32,381 nt of DNA from a virus. Under the pieces are notes generated by a model that worked only from the letters and a program-made list of their open reading frames with translations, did no database searches and was not told the origin of the DNA. The DNA lies in IMG/VR virus record IMGVR_UViG_3300019999_000034, positions 1 to 32,381 of that record; one strand, written 5' to 3'. Shown piece after piece: positions 9,004 through 21,272 of this stretch. The stretch's first letter is position 1. Each line of letters opens with the position of its first letter. Made by a program: the position numbers and the translations under genes.

Positions 9004-9015
9004 GGGCAAATGCCC
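9004..9015. promoter_or_regulatory. Operator-like palindrome, site 3
   Basis: GGGCAAATGCCC is identical to site 2 and overlaps the first possible start codon (9010) of the plus-strand gene. GCGC and AAGCGGTA follow, as at site 2. The bases between the two sites (8890-9003) hold no gene that I can support. Confidence 0.5.
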
Positions 9016-9384
9016 AATGCGCAAGCGGTACTTAGCACTATGAGTCGCCCAGCTCTCCGCGATAGCGAGCTACTCGAAGGCTTTCATCGCCGCGTCAAGT
9101 ACGTGCGAGAGAACCGCACCGAACCTTATGTGACCGTTCCGCCGGCCTTGATAATCACCGATTCGAATGGCGCTACCTGGACGCTAGGCACCGACTGGAT
9201 TCAGAAGGGCTATACCTTCTTCTGGGGCATCTACCGTAATGATGTACATACCGGTGAGAACGCCTGCAGGCTTGAGTACAGGCAAGGCCACTTGCGGGCT
9301 TTGACACCCATGGGCAGCAAGCTCTGGGTAGAGCGCTCGCGGCGGGAGCAGATATTTAGCGCCGCTCCAGGGTACTGGGTCTGA
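9010..9384 (+). CDS. Unknown protein, first gene of the virion block (124 aa)
   Basis: A polar beginning (RPALRDSELLEGFHRRVKYV) is followed by strand-rich sequence (VPPALIITDSNGATWTLGTD, YTFFWGIYRND), suggesting a small beta domain, perhaps a virion component. The ATG at 9010 has AGGGG only three bases upstream and lies in the operator palindrome; the ATG at 9040 (MSRPALRD) is a serious alternative without a good ribosome site. No family recognised. Confidence 0.6.
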   Translation: MPNAQAVLSTMSRPALRDSELLEGFHRRVKYVRENRTEPYVTVPPALIITDSNGATWTLGTDWIQKGYTFFWGIYRNDVHTGENACRLEYRQGHLRALTPMGSKLWVERSRREQIFSAAPGYWV

Positions 9385-9451: not shown

Positions 9452-9964
9452 ATGCGTGAATATATCCTAGGCTCTGTCGCGGCGACCACCACGACCGGCA
9501 TTACCATCACTGGCGCCTCGACGCTGAATTACCTCTGGCCAGCCGCCGCGCCCGCCGCCAACATCAGTTTCATCCGCCACGCGGTTGGGCAGGCCGCCAA
9601 TGCGACGAGTGCCCAGCAGCGCGTTCAGGTTGGGTTTAAGACACCAACAGGCGGTACTGGCTTTATCACTACGAGCCCGGCGGCCTTGAAGAAGATTGAT
9701 CCGGCGTCGTCGCTAGCTGGTGCAGCTGTCCCGGCTATTGGCAAGTGTGGCACTGGCATCTCGACCGATACCGAGGCCACTGGCACCATTACCACGTTGA
9801 TCGACGATAACTTCAACGTGCTCAATGGATATCTCTTCGTCTCGACTCCTCCAGAGGCGATCGTCGCGCCAGCCGGTTCGGCGCAGCTTTATCAGTTCTG
9901 GTTCCCGACCGCGCCAGGTACGGTGACCGGGTGGAATTGGTACGAGGTTTTTGCTGAGATCTAA
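9452..9964 (+). CDS. Probable virion structural protein, Thr/Ala/Gly-rich (170 aa)
   Basis: The composition is typical of exposed beta-structure virion proteins: TTTTGITITGASTLNYLWP at the start, then LIDDNFNVLNGYLFVSTPPE and a C-terminus rich in aromatic residues (WNWYEVFAEI). AAGGA lies upstream of the ATG. It opens a run of virion-surface genes. It could be a decoration or tail-appendage protein; I do not recognise the family. Confidence 0.6.
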   Translation: MREYILGSVAATTTTGITITGASTLNYLWPAAAPAANISFIRHAVGQAANATSAQQRVQVGFKTPTGGTGFITTSPAALKKIDPASSLAGAAVPAIGKCGTGISTDTEATGTITTLIDDNFNVLNGYLFVSTPPEAIVAPAGSAQLYQFWFPTAPGTVTGWNWYEVFAEI

Positions 9965-10000: not shown

Positions 10001-10597
10001 ATGACTACCTTTATCGCGTTCTCCGACACCATGCCGAACACAAACAGCGGCTATGGCGGCACGGCGAACGGCACCGATGTTCGTGAGGTCATCCCTGTCA
10101 CCAGTCTGAATAGCGTCTACACAGGGCCGGTGCGGGCAAGCGTCATCATCAAATCGCAGACTGGCACAAGCGGCAATCTCGATGGCCTCTACATCGGGAG
10201 CAGCGGCGGCGGCACCAATGGCGTCAATTTTGGTGGCGACCAAGCGCAGATCAAATGGTCAGGTTCGGCTAGTCTTGCACTAAGCGGCGCCCAGACCTAT
10301 GCGGCATCAGACCTATCGCCGCAATTTTTCTACGACCCAAGCAAGCCGCTCGTTATCGCGATGCATTTCAGTGGCGCGAACTGCACGGCCGCGTCTAGGT
10401 CAGCATCGATCGGCGCGAACACGAATAATTACCAGCTCAATACCCTGAGCCAGGTCAGTCTGACAACACCCGCCGGCTCGTATACGGGCGATACATTCTA
10501 CTCGTGGGTGATGGAAATCGACCTACTTGAGACGCCCATCCCTACTGACCCGCCATTTGGCCTGCGGCGGCACATTGCCTGGATGAGGGCGCGCTGA
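10001..10597 (+). CDS. Probable tail appendage protein ending in a PPFGL...W motif
   Basis: The 198-residue Ser/Gly/Thr-rich protein has a beta-sandwich-like composition (VIIKSQTGTSGNLDGLYIG, FSGANCTAASRSASIG). Its C-terminus DPPFGLRRHIAWMRAR resembles the NNPPFGIPPKW...AW junction repeated in the large tailspike at 14255-18589 and the end of the protein at 12261-12800. The stop region abuts the next start. The shared tail may be a docking element; that is inference. Confidence 0.6.
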   Translation: MTTFIAFSDTMPNTNSGYGGTANGTDVREVIPVTSLNSVYTGPVRASVIIKSQTGTSGNLDGLYIGSSGGGTNGVNFGGDQAQIKWSGSASLALSGAQTYAASDLSPQFFYDPSKPLVIAMHFSGANCTAASRSASIGANTNNYQLNTLSQVSLTTPAGSYTGDTFYSWVMEIDLLETPIPTDPPFGLRRHIAWMRAR

Positions 10598-12261
10598 TGG
10601 CCTTGACATATTATGTAGATGGCGTCGGCGGCCTCGACTCGAACAACGGGCTGACGCCTGGAACGGCCTGGCAGACCATCGCGAAAGTGAATGGCTTTAC
10701 ATGGACTGTCCAGGGCACAAATGTGCTTTTCGCTGGCGGCCAATCGTTTAGCGGCACGGTTACCCCATCGAATGGCCTAGCGTCCGCGACGCCGCTTATC
10801 ATTGGTTCATATGGAACCGGCAACGCCACGATCGCCGGTGGCTCTGGGGCTGCCTTCTTCGCCCAAAATATGGGTGGTATCACCGTCCAGGATCTTATAT
10901 TCACCGGCACCAGCACGCTCACCAACACCGGCCATGGAATACAGTTCGATAATAACCAAGCCGGTAATACAACTATATCTGGGATTTCAATCCTACGATG
11001 TACAGTCAGCGGGTTTGGCTTAAACGGCATCTACATCTCAGGTAGCACTGGAACGTCTGGCTTTGGCAATGTCCTGATTGACGGCTGCATCGTTCATGAT
11101 TGCACTGGGAATTATACCGGCGCGCTTGGGTCTGCCGGAATCTATGTAGGATCGTCGCCTGGTTATGGACTTCTATCAAACGGTCGCGCGTCGCACTCTA
11201 ATATCACCATCCAAAATTGTATCGCATACAACAACCTTGGGAAGGCTGGCGCCGGTAATTGGGTCGGTTCCGGAATTTTCATGTCCGAGGTTAACATAGG
11301 CCTGTTCCAATTTTGCCAGGCATATAATAATGGCACAAACGGCAATTTTGTATCCGGCGGCGCGATCGGAATTTGGACGGCGGACTCAACCAACGTCGTA
11401 ATACAGTTCAGCGAATCACACCATAACCGGACAGGCTCGACGGCCGACGGAGGTGGTTTTGGACTCGACGGCGGCTGCCAGAATTGCACGATCCAGTATT
11501 GCTATTCTCACGACAACCATGGTGCCGGGCATCAGCTATATGCCTTCGACGACGCTACTATCCTACAAGACACGACCAAAACCATCCGCTTCTGCATCAG
11601 CCAAAATGACTGCCAACTATTCACGACCTTGAGTGGTGGAATTTCATTCGGTAGTGACAGCACAAGGGCACAGTCTGGCGACGTCTATAACAACACCGTT
11701 TATTCCGATGGCAATATTTCAAGGTCGTGCATCAGCCTTGGCGGTTCCCATGTGTCAATCCAAACTGGGCGCGTGGCCAACAACGTGCTTTATTCGGTGA
11801 ACGGCTCGCCATTCATCTCCGCCTTTGAGGTGGATGGTAACCCATCAAGCATGACTGTGGTAGGCAACGACTACTTCAACACGGGTGCGTTCTCTATCAG
11901 ATGGAATTCTACGACCTATGCGACTTTTGCCGCATGGCAGACAGCCACGGGGCAAGAGAAGGTTGCGGCTGTCGACGTCCATTTGGCATCTGATCCGCTG
12001 CTCATAGGGCCTGGCGGTGGTGGTTCGTATATAGGCTACAATCCCGTACTCTTGCCTTATTACACATCGAAGTCTGGCTCGCCAGTTTTTGGGGCTGGGC
12101 AAAACCTGAATACGCTTTACAGTATCAACGTCGGGGCTATCGACTTCTTCGGCAACAGGGCACTTCAGAACGGGTCTAGCATTGGGGCGGATTCTGCCTT
12201 CATCCCGCCGCCTGGGCCACCTCCCATTGCGCGGGGCTCGAAGCACATCGGCTGGTTCTGA
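10597..12261 (+). CDS. Right-handed beta-helix tailspike-like protein, short form (554 aa)
   Basis: It starts YYVDGVGGLDSNNGLTPGTA, a common opening of pectate-lyase-like phage proteins, and continues with repeated rungs rich in Asn, Ser and hydrophobic residues (ITVQDLIFTGTSTL, ITIQNCIAYNN, CTIQYCYSHDN). Such proteins are trimeric receptor-binding or polysaccharide-degrading spikes. No catalytic residues can be assigned by eye. Residues 4-530 are closely similar to residues 28-560 of the 14255-18589 protein. The C-terminus (RGSKHIGWF) is short and lacks the repeat domain. Its ATG abuts the previous stop. Confidence 0.85.
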   Translation: MALTYYVDGVGGLDSNNGLTPGTAWQTIAKVNGFTWTVQGTNVLFAGGQSFSGTVTPSNGLASATPLIIGSYGTGNATIAGGSGAAFFAQNMGGITVQDLIFTGTSTLTNTGHGIQFDNNQAGNTTISGISILRCTVSGFGLNGIYISGSTGTSGFGNVLIDGCIVHDCTGNYTGALGSAGIYVGSSPGYGLLSNGRASHSNITIQNCIAYNNLGKAGAGNWVGSGIFMSEVNIGLFQFCQAYNNGTNGNFVSGGAIGIWTADSTNVVIQFSESHHNRTGSTADGGGFGLDGGCQNCTIQYCYSHDNHGAGHQLYAFDDATILQDTTKTIRFCISQNDCQLFTTLSGGISFGSDSTRAQSGDVYNNTVYSDGNISRSCISLGGSHVSIQTGRVANNVLYSVNGSPFISAFEVDGNPSSMTVVGNDYFNTGAFSIRWNSTTYATFAAWQTATGQEKVAAVDVHLASDPLLIGPGGGGSYIGYNPVLLPYYTSKSGSPVFGAGQNLNTLYSINVGAIDFFGNRALQNGSSIGADSAFIPPPGPPPIARGSKHIGWF

Positions 12262-12800
12262 TGTCCTTCAATGTTGGCTACACAACCGTCCCGACTAGCA
12301 CTAATTTCGCGCTCGGCACCGGCTCCTGCTTCTTTGGCGGCGGCCCATACACGATGCCATCGACAGGCGTTCTTCAATCAGTTTCCTACTGGGCGAATGG
12401 TGCAACTGGGGGTAATAATTTCCTAGGCGTCTACTCAGATAATGGGTCTAATAAACCCCTTGCCCTCTTGGCGACGAGCGCAGCTAATACATTCGCGTCT
12501 GGGTGGAACACCTTCGCAATGACGACCAACCCGACAATAACATCGGGTACAAAGGTTTGGTTTGCAATCTTGCCGGTGACAGTAAGCCCATCGTTCGAAA
12601 ACGATACGGGGCAGCCGAGCAACATAAACTGGTACGATACAGGAGGGAGCAACACAACCCTCCCATCCACGTTCACAGGCACAAATACATTCACCAATTC
12701 CACCGGCGGCCTTTACGGGACATTCAACCCGCCTGTTGTCCCGGCCACCAATAACCCGCCATTTGGCCTACACAGCGTCATAGGCTGGTCGTATGGGTGA
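12261..12800 (+). CDS. Probable receptor-binding/appendage protein with PPFGL tail (179 aa)
   Basis: A beta-rich protein (YTMPSTGVLQSVSYWANGAT, LGVYSDNGSNKPLALLA, AGW-type loops) whose composition suggests a jelly-roll or carbohydrate-binding domain. It starts within the stop of the tailspike (TGATG) and ends NNPPFGLHSVIGWSYG, the motif shared with the 10001-10597 protein and the repeats of the large tailspike. Confidence 0.6.
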   Translation: MSFNVGYTTVPTSTNFALGTGSCFFGGGPYTMPSTGVLQSVSYWANGATGGNNFLGVYSDNGSNKPLALLATSAANTFASGWNTFAMTTNPTITSGTKVWFAILPVTVSPSFENDTGQPSNINWYDTGGSNTTLPSTFTGTNTFTNSTGGLYGTFNPPVVPATNNPPFGLHSVIGWSYG

Positions 12801-12803
12801 CGC

Positions 12804-13358
12804 ATGAGTCGGACTTATTTCAGGGATCTCGTCAACGAGCCGCTAGCGATAAACAACGCTTCGGTGACGTTGGCCGCCGGCACTGACACGATTCTTTTTC
12901 CAGCTGGTCAGATTGCGATTCAAAACTCCGACGTTAGGCCAGGGAAGGTTTGGAAGCTTACGGCGAGCGGCATAGTAACGACAGGCGTAACGGGAGCTTG
13001 GATCGTTACTCAGCGGTGGGGGCAACTTCTATCGAGCCCGAGCCTTGGCGTCGGCGGCCCAGCCACCTACAACACGCCAGGTAGTGAAACGAATACCGTC
13101 TTCATTATTGAAGCGTACTGGAAATGCGCCACCCTAGGTCTTGGAGGGGGCGCAAACTCTTCGGTCGTCGGCAACGGACTATTTATTGCGCCTGCGACAG
13201 GTACCGCTGGACAGACATGGATTCAGCCAATGGGCGGCGGGTCGGCGGTGACTTTTGATATCGCAACAGTAAACATCGCAGGCGCGCAGATTTCGATCAA
13301 TTCTGCAGTAGCAGGGTCTATCTTGATCACTATCGTGACCCTCGAAGCGCTGAATTAG
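12804..13358 (+). CDS. Appendage protein, paralogue A (184 aa)
   Basis: It starts MSRTYFRDLVNEPLAINNAS and carries QIAIQNSDVRPGKVWKLTA; the protein at 13700-14236 has the same landmarks (MSRQYFDDIPNEPL, QIAIPAADVRPGKVWRLTA). Both are beta-rich and end in similar short peptides (LEALN, LQSLN), so they come from a gene duplication. They probably form oligomeric virion fibres or collars. No named family recognised. Confidence 0.65.
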   Translation: MSRTYFRDLVNEPLAINNASVTLAAGTDTILFPAGQIAIQNSDVRPGKVWKLTASGIVTTGVTGAWIVTQRWGQLLSSPSLGVGGPATYNTPGSETNTVFIIEAYWKCATLGLGGGANSSVVGNGLFIAPATGTAGQTWIQPMGGGSAVTFDIATVNIAGAQISINSAVAGSILITIVTLEALN

Positions 13359-13370
13359 GAGCTAGATAAA

Positions 13371-13682
13371 ATGAGCAGTTCTATTATTATTACTATTCAT
13401 TTGGAAATTCCAGTTATATCACCTAGAGAAGTATTTAGGACTTTGACAATAGACATTAGGGATATCGCGCCAACAAAACCAGATTCTGTTGCCGTGCCGT
13501 CATTAGATGTTGTCAATCCTAGTGGAACTTATAGTTTTCACGGGTGGACGCTCACGATTGTTTATGCGGCTGATAATGATACAAACGGACTATCTGGAGT
13601 TGGATCTGGTAGCCCAGGCTTTCTAGATGTGAATTTAATTTATGAAAAGTCACTTACGATCGTGGACGGGACTGTTGCTTAA
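13371..13682 (+). CDS. AT-rich unknown protein inserted between paralogues (103 aa)
   Basis: The start is rich in Ile and strand-forming residues (SSSIIITIHLEIPVISPREV). GGAG lies upstream. By eye its DNA is markedly more AT-rich than both flanking genes, with many T/A third positions, suggesting separate acquisition. It has an Ig-like beta composition but no recognised family. Confidence 0.6.
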   Translation: MSSSIIITIHLEIPVISPREVFRTLTIDIRDIAPTKPDSVAVPSLDVVNPSGTYSFHGWTLTIVYAADNDTNGLSGVGSGSPGFLDVNLIYEKSLTIVDGTVA

Positions 13683-13699: not shown

Positions 13700-14236
13700 A
13701 TGTCCCGCCAATATTTCGACGATATTCCAAATGAGCCTCTCAATTCCGCGAATGCGGTAGTAAATTTCGCGACTTCGATTCAGGTGCTCTTCTTTAACAC
13801 GTCGCAGATCGCTATCCCGGCGGCTGATGTGCGGCCCGGTAAAGTCTGGCGCCTGACGGCGGCTGGAGACATTACGACACCGGCAGCTGGCACGCTGATT
13901 ATCACCCCTTGCTGGGGAGTAGGTACTACCGTGTCGCTAGGCGCCAGCTTGACGCAAAATTACGTTCCGTCAGTGACCGGCCCATGGTTCCTAAGCGCGC
14001 TCATGATGTGCCGTGCTGTCGGGCTCGCGGGTACCAATTCGACATTTGTAGCGAGGGGATCGTTTATTGGGCCAGGCGCCGTCGCCACGGCCAGCTCGGG
14101 AACGCAGATCACGTTTGGTGGCGCGGCATCCGCCGCATGCGACCCAACAGCTGGCGGGTTCCAAATCTGCATGACCTTCTCGGTGACGGCGGCTGCCATG
14201 ACGCCGCAGATCGTTTGCTTGCAAAGCCTGAACTAG
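13700..14236 (+). CDS. Appendage protein, paralogue B (178 aa)
   Basis: A paralogue of the 12804-13358 protein over its full length, most clearly at DVRPGKVWRLTA and the N-terminus. A strong AAAGGAG precedes the start. It is followed by the large tailspike, giving a duplicated order (spike, small proteins, A; then B, spike). Confidence 0.65.
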   Translation: MSRQYFDDIPNEPLNSANAVVNFATSIQVLFFNTSQIAIPAADVRPGKVWRLTAAGDITTPAAGTLIITPCWGVGTTVSLGASLTQNYVPSVTGPWFLSALMMCRAVGLAGTNSTFVARGSFIGPGAVATASSGTQITFGGAASAACDPTAGGFQICMTFSVTAAAMTPQIVCLQSLN

Positions 14237-14254: not shown

Positions 14255-17200
14255 ATGCCCTTTGTCCCCGGCGGCTCTACGCCTGTACAACCGTTTAAAT
14301 TCTTTACTGAGCCATCGGCATCGCCGCCCGCACGAACCTACTATGTTGACTCATCGATCGGGAGCGATTCCAACAACGGCCTAACCCCGGCGACGGCATG
14401 GCAGACTGTCACCAAGGTCAATGCGCAGACTTGGGCAGTTCCGGGCACAAAGGTTCTATTCCAAGGCGGCCAATCGTTCACTGGGCCGCTGACTCCGAGC
14501 AACGGCCTAACGACTGCCAACCCTCTTGTGTTCGGCTCGTTCGGAACGGGCAATGCGACGATCGCAGGTGGCTCAGGGGCGGGATTTCTTGCCCAGAACA
14601 TGGGCGGCATCACCGTCCAAGACTTAATTTTCACGGGGACGAGCACAACCACCAACACGGCCAACGGCGTTCAGTTCGACAATAGCCAAGCTGGCAATAC
14701 GACACTCTTTGGGATCTCGGTTCTCCGCTGCACAGTCAGTGGCTTTGGCATAAACGGAATTTTAGTTTCTGGAAGCACAGGAACTTCTGGGTTCAGTGGT
14801 GTCCTTATTGACGGGTGTACCGTCCACGACTGTACTGGTAATTATAGCGGTGGGAATGGTTCGTCTGGCATCTACGTTGCCTCTGCTCCAGGCTATGGAC
14901 TACTATTAAACGGGCGAGCGTCGCACTATAATGTAACCGTCCAGAACTGTCTGGCCTATAATCACGCCGGCAAGGCGGGCGCGACGAACTGGGTCGGTTC
15001 TGGAATAACCGTAACCCAGTCAAATAACGTCCTAATCCAGTTTTGTGCTGCGCACGATAATGGTGCGAATGGAAACTTTGCGAGTGGCGGTCCTGTCGGT
15101 ATTTGGGTGGCCGACGCCACAAATTGCACGATTCAATTCTGCGAATCATACAGCAATAAGACTGGGTCTACGGCTGACGGTGATGGCTTCGATCTTGATG
15201 GCGGCCTACAGAATGCCGTCATCCAGTACTGCTATTCTCACGATAATGTTGGTGCTGGGTATCAGCTCTATACCTATGACGACTCGACGATCCTACAAGA
15301 CACAAATAAGGTTATTAGATTCTGCATAAGTCAGAACGATAGCGCCACTATTGGCGGCTCTATCTCGCTCGGCAATGATAGCACCCGCGCTCAAGCATCG
15401 GAAATTTACAACAACACGGTATATGCCAGTGCAGGTCGCGGCCTGCTCGCCCTAGGCGGCGCGCACATATCTACCAATACCGGTCGTATCGCCAATAATA
15501 TATTCTATTCGACTAGCAACGTTCCGTTAATTGTAAATTTCGAGAATGACGGCAATCCGTCAAGTCTCGTTGTTGTCGGAAACGATTATTATAACACCGG
15601 CACATTCTCGATACGCTGGAATTCGACAACCTATACGACCTTCGCATCTTGGCAGACGGCGACTGGCCAAGAGAAAATCGCCACTGTTGATGTGCACCTT
15701 GCAGTTGATCCTCGCTTTGCGGCGCCGGGTACCGGCCCCACTGGGGTAGGCGGCTACAATCCTGGCTCCCTCCAGCAATCCTACATGCCTGGCTCGGGCT
15801 CGCCCGTCCTTGGCGCCGGACAGAATCTAAACTCGCTTTATTCGATCGTCACGGGTACTGTCGATTTCTTCGGCGCGCCTGTCCCGACGAGCGGTGGCCT
15901 TTATGCGGTTGGCGCATCTGACCTCGGCACTCTAAGCGGCCGCCATCCGAAGCCTATCGACTCAATTCTCAGCGCGTGGGTACCGCCGCCCTTCACAGTA
16001 TTGGAGGCGGCACAGACTTCGCAGGGTGTCGAGGCGGACAATCCGCCATTCTCGGTTGCGTCCTCGCTCGATAACCTTCAAGTCATCCTTGGCACGTGGC
16101 CGCAACAGCCGGTTACTCAGCAGCTATTCAAAGCCCAGACCTCGCAAGGAGTCGAGGTAGACCGGCCGACAACTAATAACGATGAGCTGGACAATAACCA
16201 GACGATCCTAGCCGCCTGGGTGCCTGACATGGCGCCCTATGCCTTCATCTCTAACCCCCGGCGCTTCATGGCGCCGTTTGCCGCGCCGCCTGTCGTTACC
16301 TTCGTCGCTAGCACCGACACGCCGATGATGCCGGTCTGGACGTGGTGGAACGCGCAGCCCGATCCGCTGCCGCACGTCCCGCAGTACCTGCCGATTCCGC
16401 CGCCGTCATTGGCGCAAAATTCGGCATATGGCGAGATTGTCCGCCAGCAAGATCCGTGGCAATACGCTTTCATTGGCGCCCAGCCATTTGGCGTCAAGGT
16501 GAGCGCAGCGACGCTACAGCAGCCTGCCCAGGTTAATTATCCTGGCCCGTCTGTTGACGAAATAACGACCCAGCCAGACGAGTGGGTTTATACCTTCATT
16601 GGCGGTAACCAGCCGTTCGAGCCGCCAAGCTTCCTAGTCCAGGCCATATCGGCTCCGCCCGTCCAGCCGCCTTTGTCGATGTGCGGCGTCGCCGATTTCT
16701 ACAGCGTCCTTAGTGCCTGGGCGCTAGCCGACCCATTGCCGACACTTCCAAAGCCGCTGAACCCGGCGCTTTTGGTGGTGCCGAACCCGCCGACGAGTGC
16801 GGGGCTGCTCGTCGATTTATACAATATCCTAATTTCGTGGCTGCCGTCCGACCATGGACCAATTCTCGGGCCGAAGCTTGCTCCGCCAACACCGCCGGCC
16901 ATCTTTCTGCCAAGCGGTCCGCAAGCTAGCCTCGACACAGTTCTCATCGGTTGGCTGCCAACACCGCCTGTCTTCGTCGCAGGTGCCATCACAGCGCTTG
17001 GCGTAGAGGTTGACCAGCCGCCGACATCAATTGCTGCGCTATGCGACTTGCATAGCATCCTCAATGCTTGGATCCCGCCTGACCCAGCGCCGCTGACGAA
17101 TGCCAAGCGGCCGCAAGGGACGCCTGTTAGTGCGCCGCCGCCCTATTCAGCGGTGGACTTCTACTCGGTTCTGGTGGCGTGGATTCCGCCACCGCCACAG

Positions 17201-18589
17201 CCTATCGTCAACCAGCAGCTCAACCCCGCCTTTGAAGCGGTTGCTGCAAATAACCCGCCATTCGCAGGGACAGCGCGCGCCACACAATCAGCCATCGTGG
17301 CATCTTGGGCGCCAGGTGACCCTGCGATCCAGACACAGAGATTCGCGCCGCAAGTTGCACCGATCGTTTCGTTTGTTCCTGCGCCGGCCCAGCACCTTGC
17401 CGAGCTAGTTGCCTGGCAGCCAGTATTTCAATTACCGACTTTACCGCCCAATCTGAATCCCGCCTTCGAGGCGGTTGCGGTCAACAATCCGCCATTTGGG
17501 ATTCCGCCGAAATGGCTCGACGTTGTCGAAGCCGCGTGGATTCCGCCGCCGCCGCAAGCGCCTGTCGGGACGAAGCTAAACCCGTTCTATTCGAACGTTC
17601 CTATTACGACGCCGCCGCCGTATTCGCATGCGACGCTCGATGTCGTTCTAGAGGCGTGGATTCCGCCACCGCCACAGCCACCTCTACCCGATCTTCTTCC
17701 GCCCTCAAGTCTAGCCGTTGCGGTCAATAACCCGCCGGTAGCAGCGCACAAGATCGACGCGGAGCTGGTCTCGTGGCTGCCGCCAGATCCACGCCCATAC
17801 TTCCCGCGATATCAAGTCCAAGGATTCTTCACACCGCAGATAGTCACGCCACACGCACAGGCGCAAGTCGATACGGTTCTGGTCTCATGGAGACCGCCAG
17901 ATCCCGCGCCAATCGTTGCGCGGAATAACTACCCGTCCTTATTATCGGTAGCCGTTAACAACCCGCCACCGTCTAGCCTATGTACGCTGGACGCGATAAT
18001 AGCGGCGTGGATTCCGCCGCCACCTGCGCCGGTTGTAAATGGCAATGTAAATGCGACTGCTGAGTCTGTTGCGCCAAGCCAGCCATTTACCAGGCTGCAC
18101 CAAGCTATCTTGCCGGCATGGACGCCGGCTGACTTACTACCGCAGCGTCAGTCGTTCATTCCGCAGGTAGCGGCGCCCGTCCTTTCGAATCGATCCGCGC
18201 TGCTCTCGACGCTGCTTGCATCGTGGCAGTCGCAAGATACTGCGCTGGTCTCGCGCGTCCAGGTAGCGCCATTACTCTCAGCGCCACATATGCCATGGAC
18301 GCAACGGCTAGATAGCATCCTGGCAGCCTGGGAGCCGGCCCTACAGCCGCAACTGCGCCGCCCCGCCGTCACCATAGGGGTGAAGGTCAGCAACCCGCCA
18401 TTTGGCATACCGCCGGCATGGCAAACTGGTGTACTGGAAGCTTGGATACCACCGCCTCCGGCGCCAGTACTCGGTAACAACAGCAATCCGCTGGTACAAT
18501 ACATACCGGCGTTTATCATCTTACTACAGGGCTCCGTTACGAAGATCGTACTTCTAAATGGCAGTGTGAATTTAAGACAGGGGCCATGA
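14255..18589 (+). CDS. Giant beta-helix tailspike with C-terminal AWIPPPP repeat domain (1444 aa)
   Basis: Residues 1-27 form a short head-binding-like leader (MPFVPGGSTPVQPF). Residues 28-560 are a right-handed beta-helix nearly parallel to the 10597-12261 protein. Residues 568 to about 1420 consist of about 22 repeats of 34-43 residues: LD..L.AWIPPPP.P.....LNP....VAVNNPPF. The last residues (IILLQGSVTKIVLLNG) are hydrophobic strands. The AWIPPPP core and NNPPF core alternate with variable loops. The repeats are degenerate, with different codons, so the expansion is old. It is probably a receptor-binding fibre in which the repeats form an extended stalk; this is inference. AAAAAGGGCGAG lies upstream of the start. 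Confidence 0.85.
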   Translation: MPFVPGGSTPVQPFKFFTEPSASPPARTYYVDSSIGSDSNNGLTPATAWQTVTKVNAQTWAVPGTKVLFQGGQSFTGPLTPSNGLTTANPLVFGSFGTGNATIAGGSGAGFLAQNMGGITVQDLIFTGTSTTTNTANGVQFDNSQAGNTTLFGISVLRCTVSGFGINGILVSGSTGTSGFSGVLIDGCTVHDCTGNYSGGNGSSGIYVASAPGYGLLLNGRASHYNVTVQNCLAYNHAGKAGATNWVGSGITVTQSNNVLIQFCAAHDNGANGNFASGGPVGIWVADATNCTIQFCESYSNKTGSTADGDGFDLDGGLQNAVIQYCYSHDNVGAGYQLYTYDDSTILQDTNKVIRFCISQNDSATIGGSISLGNDSTRAQASEIYNNTVYASAGRGLLALGGAHISTNTGRIANNIFYSTSNVPLIVNFENDGNPSSLVVVGNDYYNTGTFSIRWNSTTYTTFASWQTATGQEKIATVDVHLAVDPRFAAPGTGPTGVGGYNPGSLQQSYMPGSGSPVLGAGQNLNSLYSIVTGTVDFFGAPVPTSGGLYAVGASDLGTLSGRHPKPIDSILSAWVPPPFTVLEAAQTSQGVEADNPPFSVASSLDNLQVILGTWPQQPVTQQLFKAQTSQGVEVDRPTTNNDELDNNQTILAAWVPDMAPYAFISNPRRFMAPFAAPPVVTFVASTDTPMMPVWTWWNAQPDPLPHVPQYLPIPPPSLAQNSAYGEIVRQQDPWQYAFIGAQPFGVKVSAATLQQPAQVNYPGPSVDEITTQPDEWVYTFIGGNQPFEPPSFLVQAISAPPVQPPLSMCGVADFYSVLSAWALADPLPTLPKPLNPALLVVPNPPTSAGLLVDLYNILISWLPSDHGPILGPKLAPPTPPAIFLPSGPQASLDTVLIGWLPTPPVFVAGAITALGVEVDQPPTSIAALCDLHSILNAWIPPDPAPLTNAKRPQGTPVSAPPPYSAVDFYSVLVAWIPPPPQPIVNQQLNPAFEAVAANNPPFAGTARATQSAIVASWAPGDPAIQTQRFAPQVAPIVSFVPAPAQHLAELVAWQPVFQLPTLPPNLNPAFEAVAVNNPPFGIPPKWLDVVEAAWIPPPPQAPVGTKLNPFYSNVPITTPPPYSHATLDVVLEAWIPPPPQPPLPDLLPPSSLAVAVNNPPVAAHKIDAELVSWLPPDPRPYFPRYQVQGFFTPQIVTPHAQAQVDTVLVSWRPPDPAPIVARNNYPSLLSVAVNNPPPSSLCTLDAIIAAWIPPPPAPVVNGNVNATAESVAPSQPFTRLHQAILPAWTPADLLPQRQSFIPQVAAPVLSNRSALLSTLLASWQSQDTALVSRVQVAPLLSAPHMPWTQRLDSILAAWEPALQPQLRRPAVTIGVKVSNPPFGIPPAWQTGVLEAWIPPPPAPVLGNNSNPLVQYIPAFIILLQGSVTKIVLLNGSVNLRQGP
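15956..18510 (+). repeat. Coding tandem repeats, about 22 units of roughly 117 bp
   Basis: The units encode the AWIPPPP/NNPPF modules of the large spike. The best preserved units contain VDFYSVLVAWIPPPPQP (about 17155-17205), LDVVEAAWIPPPPQAP, LDVVLEAWIPPPPQPP and LDAIIAAWIPPPPAP. Units near both ends are more diverged (for example DPWQYAFIGAQPF). Boundaries are by eye. Confidence 0.8.
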
Positions 18590-18592
18590 TTC

Positions 18593-18958
18593 ATGTCACA
18601 GGTCTCCGCGCCGTTTAGTTCTTGCGATTTCTTAGTGTACGCAAATCGAACTGTAACTATCAGAATTTCGATCAGAGATAATAACTGTAACTGGCTGTTG
18701 CCGCCGTTCTCGACGGGCTATTTCGCGATCTCGCCATATGCGGGGCAGCCGTTTATTTTCGATCGGAACACGGGCGGCTCTAATGTTCGCTTTACGTCGC
18801 TTATCGCTGGCCAGTGGTACCTAGACGCAGATATCCTACCTACCGATACAATGACTTTGACGCCTGGTGCTTATTATTACGAAGCGCGTCTGGACTTCTC
18901 TGGCGGCCAATATGAGCTGAAGAGTGGCCTGTTTCTACTAAGATCAACATACATATAA
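18593..18958 (+). CDS. Small virion-associated beta protein (121 aa)
   Basis: It has TVTIRISIRDNNCNWLLPPF, then LTPGAYYYEARLDFSGGQYE and GLFLLRSTYI. The pattern of a beta-sandwich with 'PG.Y.YE.......G....L..G.' is common in phage baseplate or fibre-associated small proteins (BppU N-terminus-like). It follows the tailspike directly. The assignment is tentative. Confidence 0.6.
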   Translation: MSQVSAPFSSCDFLVYANRTVTIRISIRDNNCNWLLPPFSTGYFAISPYAGQPFIFDRNTGGSNVRFTSLIAGQWYLDADILPTDTMTLTPGAYYYEARLDFSGGQYELKSGLFLLRSTYI

Positions 18959-19010
18959 CCGTATAACGGTGTTGGAAAGCGGGTTGTTGTTGCTGATATA
19001 GGGGGGTGTG

Positions 19011-19478
19011 ATGAGATGGGGATCGACACTAATCATCGCTATAATTGCGTTCGGATTCTTGCCGTTAACCAACGCCAACGCGGTATGTCATGTTATTGAT
19101 ATATCGCGGACAGCGATTATTAAGCAAATAGGTGGCAAACAGACCAAGCAGCTTCTAAAGGTTTACCACACAGAAGGCTTCCGCTGCTATATTGGCAATC
19201 ATGGGTCATCATTCGGGCCATTTCAGTTGCATTATGGTGGACGCCATAATACCCGAGGCAATCGGGAAGCTGGAATGGGGGAAGTGTTTACCAGGCAGAC
19301 TGGCTTGAATGCTAGAAACCCAAGTTCAGTCCCGGCCCAAATCCGATTTATGAAGCGCTGGGGGCTTGCTCATGGCGGGTTCTCAAGCGAGATTTGGCAT
19401 GGTCTGCGCGGTCGGCATCACGTGCGCTATGCACATTCTCGGCATCACCGGCGTCATTCACATCATAGGTATGCATGA
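19011..19478 (+). CDS. Exported lysozyme/transglycosylase-like endolysin
   Basis: The N-terminus is a signal peptide (MRWGSTLIIAIIAFGFLPLT, cleavage near ANA-VC). TEGFRCYIGNHGSSFGPFQL at 54-73 matches the catalytic region of lysozyme-like transglycosylases: Glu55 as the acid, then the S-GPFQ(L)-H-Y-G substrate loop. The C-terminal 30 residues are very rich in Arg and His and could contact the outer membrane. GTG at 19008 directly precedes the ATG at 19011; GGGGGG lies upstream. It would degrade peptidoglycan at release, exported by the host Sec system. Its stop overlaps the next gene. Confidence 0.7.
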   Translation: MRWGSTLIIAIIAFGFLPLTNANAVCHVIDISRTAIIKQIGGKQTKQLLKVYHTEGFRCYIGNHGSSFGPFQLHYGGRHNTRGNREAGMGEVFTRQTGLNARNPSSVPAQIRFMKRWGLAHGGFSSEIWHGLRGRHHVRYAHSRHHRRHSHHRYA

Positions 19479-20312: not shown

Positions 20313-21272
20313 ATGAGACACGCAAAGCTGCACATTGTGACGGCCGTGTCCAACCCGATACGCTGGAAATCGCGCATTGCTTTGACGCGCGCTGCTATTG
20401 GATCATGGCTTAGCGAACCGCAGGTAGACATCACGATAGTAGAATGTGCGTATGGTGCAGGTGATTATGAACTAGACGACATGGGTGAGCATGAGCGCAT
20501 CACCCATGTGCCGGTGCGCGCTACGACGATGGCGTGGTCGAAAGAGAACCTTCTAAATATAGGGATGTCACGTCTTCCACACTGCGCTGATTATGTTGCA
20601 TTTTTCGACGCCGATATAATTTTTCGTAAAAGCGGCTGGGCGCACGAGGCACTCAAGGATCTGCAATTATATCCGGTCATCCAGCCATGGAAGACATGCT
20701 ACGATCTCGGCCCGAATGACGAACATTTAGCGTCGTTCCAATCCTTTGCGTCGCTCTATCACAAGGGCAGCAAGGTTATTCCTAGGTTTGATCCTACCAC
20801 GCTAACGCTAACCAATAGCCCATACGCCTATCCACACCCTGGCTATTGTTGGGCATGGCAGCTTGGCGTGCTAGGCCGCATTGGTGGGCTGTTTGAATAC
20901 GGAGCGTGCGGTGCTGCCGATCACCATATGGCTCTTGCGCTGATCGGCAAATCTAATGCGTCCTTACCACATGGGATTAACGCAGACTATGTGAAATTCC
21001 TAAAGGCGTGGGAGTCTCGCGCCTTGGCGCAGGTTAATAAGAAACTAGGGTTTTGCCACCAGACGATCGAACATCCCTATCATGGTCGGAAGTGCGATAG
21101 GAGATACAACTGGCGATGGCGAGTGCTACTTGATAACGATTTCAATCCAATTACCGACCTAAAGACTAATCAGTATGGCGTAATTGAATGGGCCGGGAAT
21201 AAGCCGGATCTAGAACGCCTGTGGGATAATTATATGCGTGATCGTCAGGAAGACTGCAACGTCACATCTTAG
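20313..21272 (+). CDS. GT-A type glycosyltransferase (319 aa)
   Basis: The N-terminal nucleotide-sugar binding half ends in YVAFFDADIIFR with the metal-binding D-A-D at 99-101. The acceptor half shows PHPGYCWAWQLGVLGRIGGL followed by GAADHHMALAL, equivalent to the G..(W/F)A....G.IGG..E..GG.D.D pattern of galactosyltransferase-like families. It may glycosylate phage DNA, a virion protein or the host surface (seroconversion); its position among lysis and envelope genes favours the last two. It is soluble, with no membrane segment. GAGAAGACGG lies upstream. Confidence 0.8.
   Translation: MRHAKLHIVTAVSNPIRWKSRIALTRAAIGSWLSEPQVDITIVECAYGAGDYELDDMGEHERITHVPVRATTMAWSKENLLNIGMSRLPHCADYVAFFDADIIFRKSGWAHEALKDLQLYPVIQPWKTCYDLGPNDEHLASFQSFASLYHKGSKVIPRFDPTTLTLTNSPYAYPHPGYCWAWQLGVLGRIGGLFEYGACGAADHHMALALIGKSNASLPHGINADYVKFLKAWESRALAQVNKKLGFCHQTIEHPYHGRKCDRRYNWRWRVLLDNDFNPITDLKTNQYGVIEWAGNKPDLERLWDNYMRDRQEDCNVTS

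Follow-up and report, generated by a model that had tools for sequence, protein, structure and literature searches.

In this study, we have examined a repeat array encoded by the window, a 32,381-bp virus record analysed over its whole length (IMG/VR record IMGVR_UViG_3300019999_000034), which is probably a fragment of a longer genome. The array consists of 22 units anchored by tryptophan and rich in proline (the Trp-Pro repeat) and follows a domain that looks beta-helix-like from its sequence. Our searches indicate that the Trp-Pro repeat is a new, unnamed module associated with virions, found so far only in uncultivated phages and with a putative function. We lean, with some reserve, towards reading the 22 units of the tail as an array of this virion-associated module, which would work as a modular stalk or linker of extended shape, because the attachment-type domains fused to related arrays and the virion-type context of their genes fit such a role. 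The window protein, encoded by a single open reading frame (ORF), is laid out as follows:

14255..18589, + strand: ORF of 1444 amino acids (aa), with a beta-helix-like N-terminal domain, a 22-unit Trp-Pro array and a short hydrophobic C-terminal tail
14255..15934, + strand: N-terminal domain, residues 1-560, beta-helix-like as judged from sequence and homologues
15953..18505, + strand: array of 22 Trp-anchored units, residues 567-1417, spacing 35-45, delimited from the window units and homologous arrays
18506..18586, + strand: C-terminal tail, about PAFIILLQGSVTKIVLLNGSVNLRQGP, outside the array

The Trp anchors of the units stand at residues 575, 615, 655, 697, 735, 777, 822, 862, 900, 939, 976, 1018, 1054, 1095, 1135, 1174, 1212, 1252, 1289, 1324, 1359 and 1397, with Trp-to-Trp gaps of 35-45 residues (mean 39). 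The unit core reads h-D-x-h-L-x-[AS]-W-h-P-P-[PD]-P-x-P and is often followed by a spacer of the form L-[NS]-P...[VA]-[ND]-N-P-P-F, so that [AS]W-x-PP-[DP]-P-x-P units recur in the window protein at a spacing of about 35-45 residues; units 4-6 (residues ~690-805) are strongly degenerate. A first-pass annotation, made from the letters of the window, had placed about 22 AWIPPPP/NNPPF repeats at 15956-18510, that is, at residues 568-1418 of the ORF. The count, the spacing and the approximate coordinates are borne out by our analysis, the literal motif being rarer than its wording implies (5 exact occurrences of AWIPPPP-coding DNA in the window, 2 of NNPPF). When the tail was scored with a hidden Markov model (HMM) of the unit, built from other phages only and without any window sequence, it reached 172 bits, with 17 aligned stretches above 0 bits; no more than -45 bits was obtained from 500 shuffled versions of identical composition. 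The tail contains 18% Pro, 3.1% Trp, 3.6% Gly and 3 Cys in 884 residues; the low Gly content, together with the lack of a Pfam collagen match, rules out a collagen-like fibre.

The first-pass annotation had proposed looking for the repeat in other phage contigs, and with patterns spanning two neighbouring units we found it on 14 other IMG/VR contigs from 12 distinct sources, the homologous arrays having median spacings of 37-44 residues. Nine loci lie on one contig each (L027, L030, L031, L034, L037, L038, L039, L040 and L096), two pairs of contigs carry the same array protein (L080 and L083; L095 and L098), and one 60.6-kb contig encodes two array proteins (L090 and L091). The two-unit patterns require two good adjacent units and therefore miss degenerate arrays; in one pattern search, half of the 16 loci returned were chance matches, and the single match to a strict AWIPP...NPPF pattern was also due to chance. 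A profile search recovered arrays in 12 of the 14 records tested, the remaining two being L021 and L022. The array-first proteins of L027, L034, L038, L039, L040, L096 and L098 share a motif like MGLYYxPxPPHIGGxQPLExKKLxPP in their first ~35 residues.

Outside these contigs our scans were limited to certain collections and run without a positive control genome, and their negative results do not imply absence elsewhere. No repeat was found by tblastn in 50,697 GenBank phages or 72,556 plasmids (matches in Mycobacterium, with E values of 0.4-4, were not relevant), nor in any of 385 alphaproteobacterial genomes sampled. A pattern scan of GTDB genomes, in which degenerate arrays could be missed, gave 39 stretches, none of them confirmed as family by an ORF filter, and a 167-aa query found no relative there. 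In agreement with the statement that no named phage repeat has this form, the repeats matched nothing in Pfam, PHROG, NCBIfam or PDB sequences, and literature searches did not return a description of the motif.

The domains fused to the arrays and the genes around them give the best view of what the module may do. In the L090 protein (1218 aa) the N-terminal part is rich in Gly, a strict rule counts 16 units, and a Gp77 fibre-tail adaptor domain forms the C-terminus, scoring 28.0 bits in the whole protein and 35.7 bits alone (Pfam cut-off 27 bits). Gp77 (Pfam PF23148, podophage GP4) is an adaptor domain, not a repeat, and passes the cut-off only in this protein of contig G011; weaker likeness to Gp77 is seen at the C-terminal end of the L040 protein and in the gene that follows the array of L031. 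In L091, 5 units are followed by two Fn3 stretches (77.5 bits), and in L039 long non-repeat stretches separate the units. Because of the fusions to Gp77 and Fn3 domains in L090, L091 and L040, the array would be a linker joining other domains at least in some phages. Its gene lies between the portal gene (before) and the major head protein gene (after) in G010, and upstream of a gene that is tail-nozzle-like by eye in G001 (its best PHROG match bears a lysis name, and a virion structural protein is matched weakly). The 798-aa L091 protein of G011 is encoded close to the gene for a baseplate wedge, and a tape-measure gene stands further along; a tail sheath gene lies near the L098 array, a tape-measure gene accompanies L031 and a major head gene G005. 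As array genes sit by head, sheath, baseplate and tape-measure genes, the module appears to be used by phages of podo-, sipho- and myovirus-like type and to occupy various places among the virion genes. Four phages also have an ORF of TPR type (426-468 aa) in the vicinity of the array gene (L098:10131-11450, L085:6165-7559, L092:9912-11192 and L090:10502-11908); the L098 ORF, the one that was scored, has TPR_16 above cut-off.

We infer a polyproline conformation, packing of the Trp residues, presence in the virion and a stalk role for the array. Each unit of ~39 residues would begin with a short helix, hydrophobic and terminated by Trp (xxLDxhLxAW), continue with a proline stretch (hPPPPxP or hPPDPxP) that likely adopts polyproline II, and close with a spacer ending in NPPF. 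Repetition of such units would give a long thin tether, which could keep a domain that binds receptors or glycans, in this case the beta-helix-like one, off the particle or connect two virion domains. AlphaFold, run on five window units and 13 homologous segments (a 14-row alignment), predicted a short helix at each LDVVLEA-type segment and no globular fold, with a predicted local distance difference test (pLDDT) score of 40.7 and a predicted template modelling (pTM) score of 0.25. An extended flexible chain would agree with this outcome, the alignment being too shallow to prove disorder; the defined repeating fold that the first-pass annotation had looked for from structure prediction was not obtained. 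Of the two features that it took to speak against a repeat module, disorder and a lack of conserved spacing in homologues, the first may hold on these 14 rows and the second is clearly contradicted by the homologous arrays.

Several points weigh against a stalk or linker. The array protein is a putative virion protein; the very low AlphaFold confidence establishes neither disorder nor a fold; depending on the phage, array genes occupy positions of the head, neck or tail, which does not point to one shared location; and the window array ends in a short tail without recognisable anchor (Gp77 has 0 matches in G000, the window contig), so that either end could be the attached one. The first-pass annotation had offered a stalk or a ligand-binding array, and it is the stalk half of this proposal that fits the virion-type context and the attachment-type fused domains; the ligand-binding half, like the clamping Trp residues of the same proposal, stays conjectural. 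In that second version the array would be a multivalent surface whose units bind a sugar, a piece of peptidoglycan or a protein, and thereby raise avidity and not reach. The Trp is kept in every unit while the surrounding residues vary by lineage, and the L037 array lies near spike-type beta-helix genes, as could be expected of a binding array, but no unit resembles a known binding repeat and there is no confident fold to form a binding site; we regard this version as unlikely.

Arrays are accompanied by a second conserved gene. A partner family of ~165 aa is encoded upstream of the array in 13 of the 13 contigs with enough flank, the window included, at distances of 20 bp to 8.2 kb. In the window this gene is:

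9452..9964, + strand: partner gene, 170 aa, with homologues upstream of the repeat gene elsewhere and a predicted beta-sandwich

The family has no PHROG name and no relative in GenBank phages by tblastn; one relative was found among the 385 Alphaproteobacteria, in a phage-like stretch with no array, and none in 299 genomes from the class of an Acidobacteriaceae metagenome-assembled genome. The AlphaFold model of the partner is a beta-sandwich of modest confidence (pLDDT 56.4, pTM 0.59), with weak matches in the PDB (best E 0.055), a low-confidence likeness to viral jelly-roll and C1q-like folds, and uncharacterised phage proteins as best viral matches. Such a fold would suit a model in which the array protein is a capsid appendage, a head fibre or decoration, resting on the partner as its base at the head; the model has much in common with the stalk proposal, and only the site sets the two apart. 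The partner and array genes of G010 lie between the portal and major head genes, and in L085 they are found upstream of an ORF that looks protease-like by eye and of one related to phrog_13692, as this model would predict. However, other arrays lie by the tail-nozzle-like gene (G001), the baseplate (G011) or the sheath (L098), one array protein ends in a fibre-tail adaptor domain, and all PDB matches of the partner fold have E > 0.05. We therefore hold a head location for the arrays to be possible, if rather doubtful.

The domain at the N-terminal end of the window protein, of ~540 residues, also occurs without repeats. It is 69% identical over 520 aa to the neighbouring ORF 10597-12261, 67-68% identical to an ORF of L021 and 43% to one of L022, the latter two without array. 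No Pfam model exceeded the cut-off, and a weak NCBIfam match covers residues 269-424. Because this domain occurs array-free in L021, the array is a separable module. The naming of the protein as a tailspike follows from the N-terminal domain and is plausible but unproven.

Pieces resembling the repeat stand at the end of three other genes of the window, two of them as half-units:

10544..10594, + strand: C-terminal half-unit TDPPFGLRRHIAWMRAR of the neighbouring ORF 10001-10597
12750..12797, + strand: C-terminal half-unit NNPPFGLHSVIGWSYG of ORF 12261-12800
12193..12258, + strand: C-terminal tail SAFIPPPGPPPIARGSKHIGWF of the beta-helix paralogue ORF 10597-12261, loosely unit-like

The L021 homologue of ORF 10597-12261 has a different ending. 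The motif [ND]PPFG-x(4-12)-W near the stop was found only in ORFs 10001-10597 and 12261-12800 among 3545 scanned, and in none of 1000 shuffles of the window ORF C-termini. L021 homologues of ORF 12261-12800 share 75% and 46% identity with it; these L021 relatives, at 15292-15933 and 17652-18224, end in a different tail or lack one, which suggests that this family has exchangeable C-terminal tails. The half-units could serve as docking tags, or they could be what is left of arrays that have moved. If the former, the units would be docking or self-association elements, and the array a scaffold bound by the half-units of the two ORFs in assembly or in the virion. Both ORFs are neighbours of the array gene, and the body of ORF 12261-12800 is shared at 75% identity with the L021 protein of different tail, as docking tags could explain; on the other hand, such tails were not found in other array phages, and recombination could have moved array remnants to these positions. 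We judge docking to be quite improbable, and slightly less credit goes to its extension, in which the array on the spike recruits other virion proteins through complementary PPFG...W tails and forms a modular attachment system on particles.

Upon comparison of the units with each other, we also obtained a view of their age. The 18-aa unit cores have a mean identity of 27% in protein and 41% in DNA; Tandem Repeats Finder saw no array in the DNA and only tiny runs, which rules out a simple-sequence origin, and a direct-repeat search returned only partial families of 26-49 bases. The expansion of the array is thus old or fast-evolving, and the reading of its varied codons as a sign of age agrees with this deep divergence. 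For 20 pairs of units whose protein identity is 50% or higher, the synonymous (pS) and non-synonymous (pN) values were 0.69 and 0.34, which fits purifying selection without proving it, since the pairs were picked by protein identity. Strict-rule unit counts range from 5 to 22 across homologues (17 in the window by the same rule). Of 173 units, 109 find their closest match within their own protein (13.2 expected by chance), so that arrays appear to have expanded and turned over within lineages. Such turnover does not demonstrate selection on unit number, and the earlier claim that the number is selected is unsupported by counts that vary this widely. Degenerate units, variable number and low model confidence would also be expected of a low-complexity proline-rich extension with no specific job, kept because it is harmless. 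The spacing and the Trp/Pro pattern are nonetheless conserved across phage types and a partner gene accompanies the array, and we find this explanation highly improbable.

The proposed stalk can be compared with known systems. The collagen-like side-tail proteins of E. coli O157:H7 prophages are reported to be dumbbell molecules with a hinged stalk (PMC3368898) and, like the window array as we propose it, use a proline-rich repeat stalk to connect globular domains. Collagen requires Gly at every third residue, unlike the Gly-poor window tail with its 39-residue Trp-anchored unit. Streptococcal antigen I/II has a long surface stalk that combines helical and proline-rich segments, resembling the stalk proposed here. 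Its helical and proline regions form separate long blocks, whereas the array would alternate both within each 39-residue unit, and no sequence match between the two was found. The SU10 adaptor (Pfam PF24175) belongs to the neck and contains one unit at most, unlike the array proteins. It was recognised (59 bits) in L089:16350-17189 and L088:16636-17472, and this adaptor protein of G009 and G010 bears one unit-like stretch at its N-terminus (unit 12.6 bits), a weak similarity.

Two further window genes have look-alikes near partner or array genes elsewhere:

9010..9384, + strand: 124-aa gene, with look-alikes by eye near the partner in L085, L086 and L087; no family match
18593..18958, + strand: 121-aa ORF just downstream of the array gene, in a layout like that of a 120-aa gene near the L030 array by eye; no family match

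Elsewhere in the window, a methyltransferase ORF (1-1866; PHROG methyltransferases up to 1.8e-64) has an HNH endonuclease match inside its frame at residues 132-205, and two similar ORFs of 184 and 178 aa (12804-13358 and 13700-14236), apparent tandem paralogues with no family match, flank ORF 13371-13682. A 156-aa ORF (19008-19478) contains a stretch that is lysozyme/transglycosylase-like by eye (SFGPFQLHYGG...), with a weak DUF2701 match only, and a 319-aa ORF (20313-21272) is glycosyltransferase-like by eye (DADIIF motif), with no PHROG match.

In conclusion, if the array is a stalk, it would represent a proline-rich alternative to the collagen-like and coiled-coil stalks of phage fibres, and a natural extended linker whose length is set by the number of units. 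Many virion genes that lack a name can be annotated with the help of the repeat motif, and a second handle for locating and testing the system is provided by the conserved partner gene.

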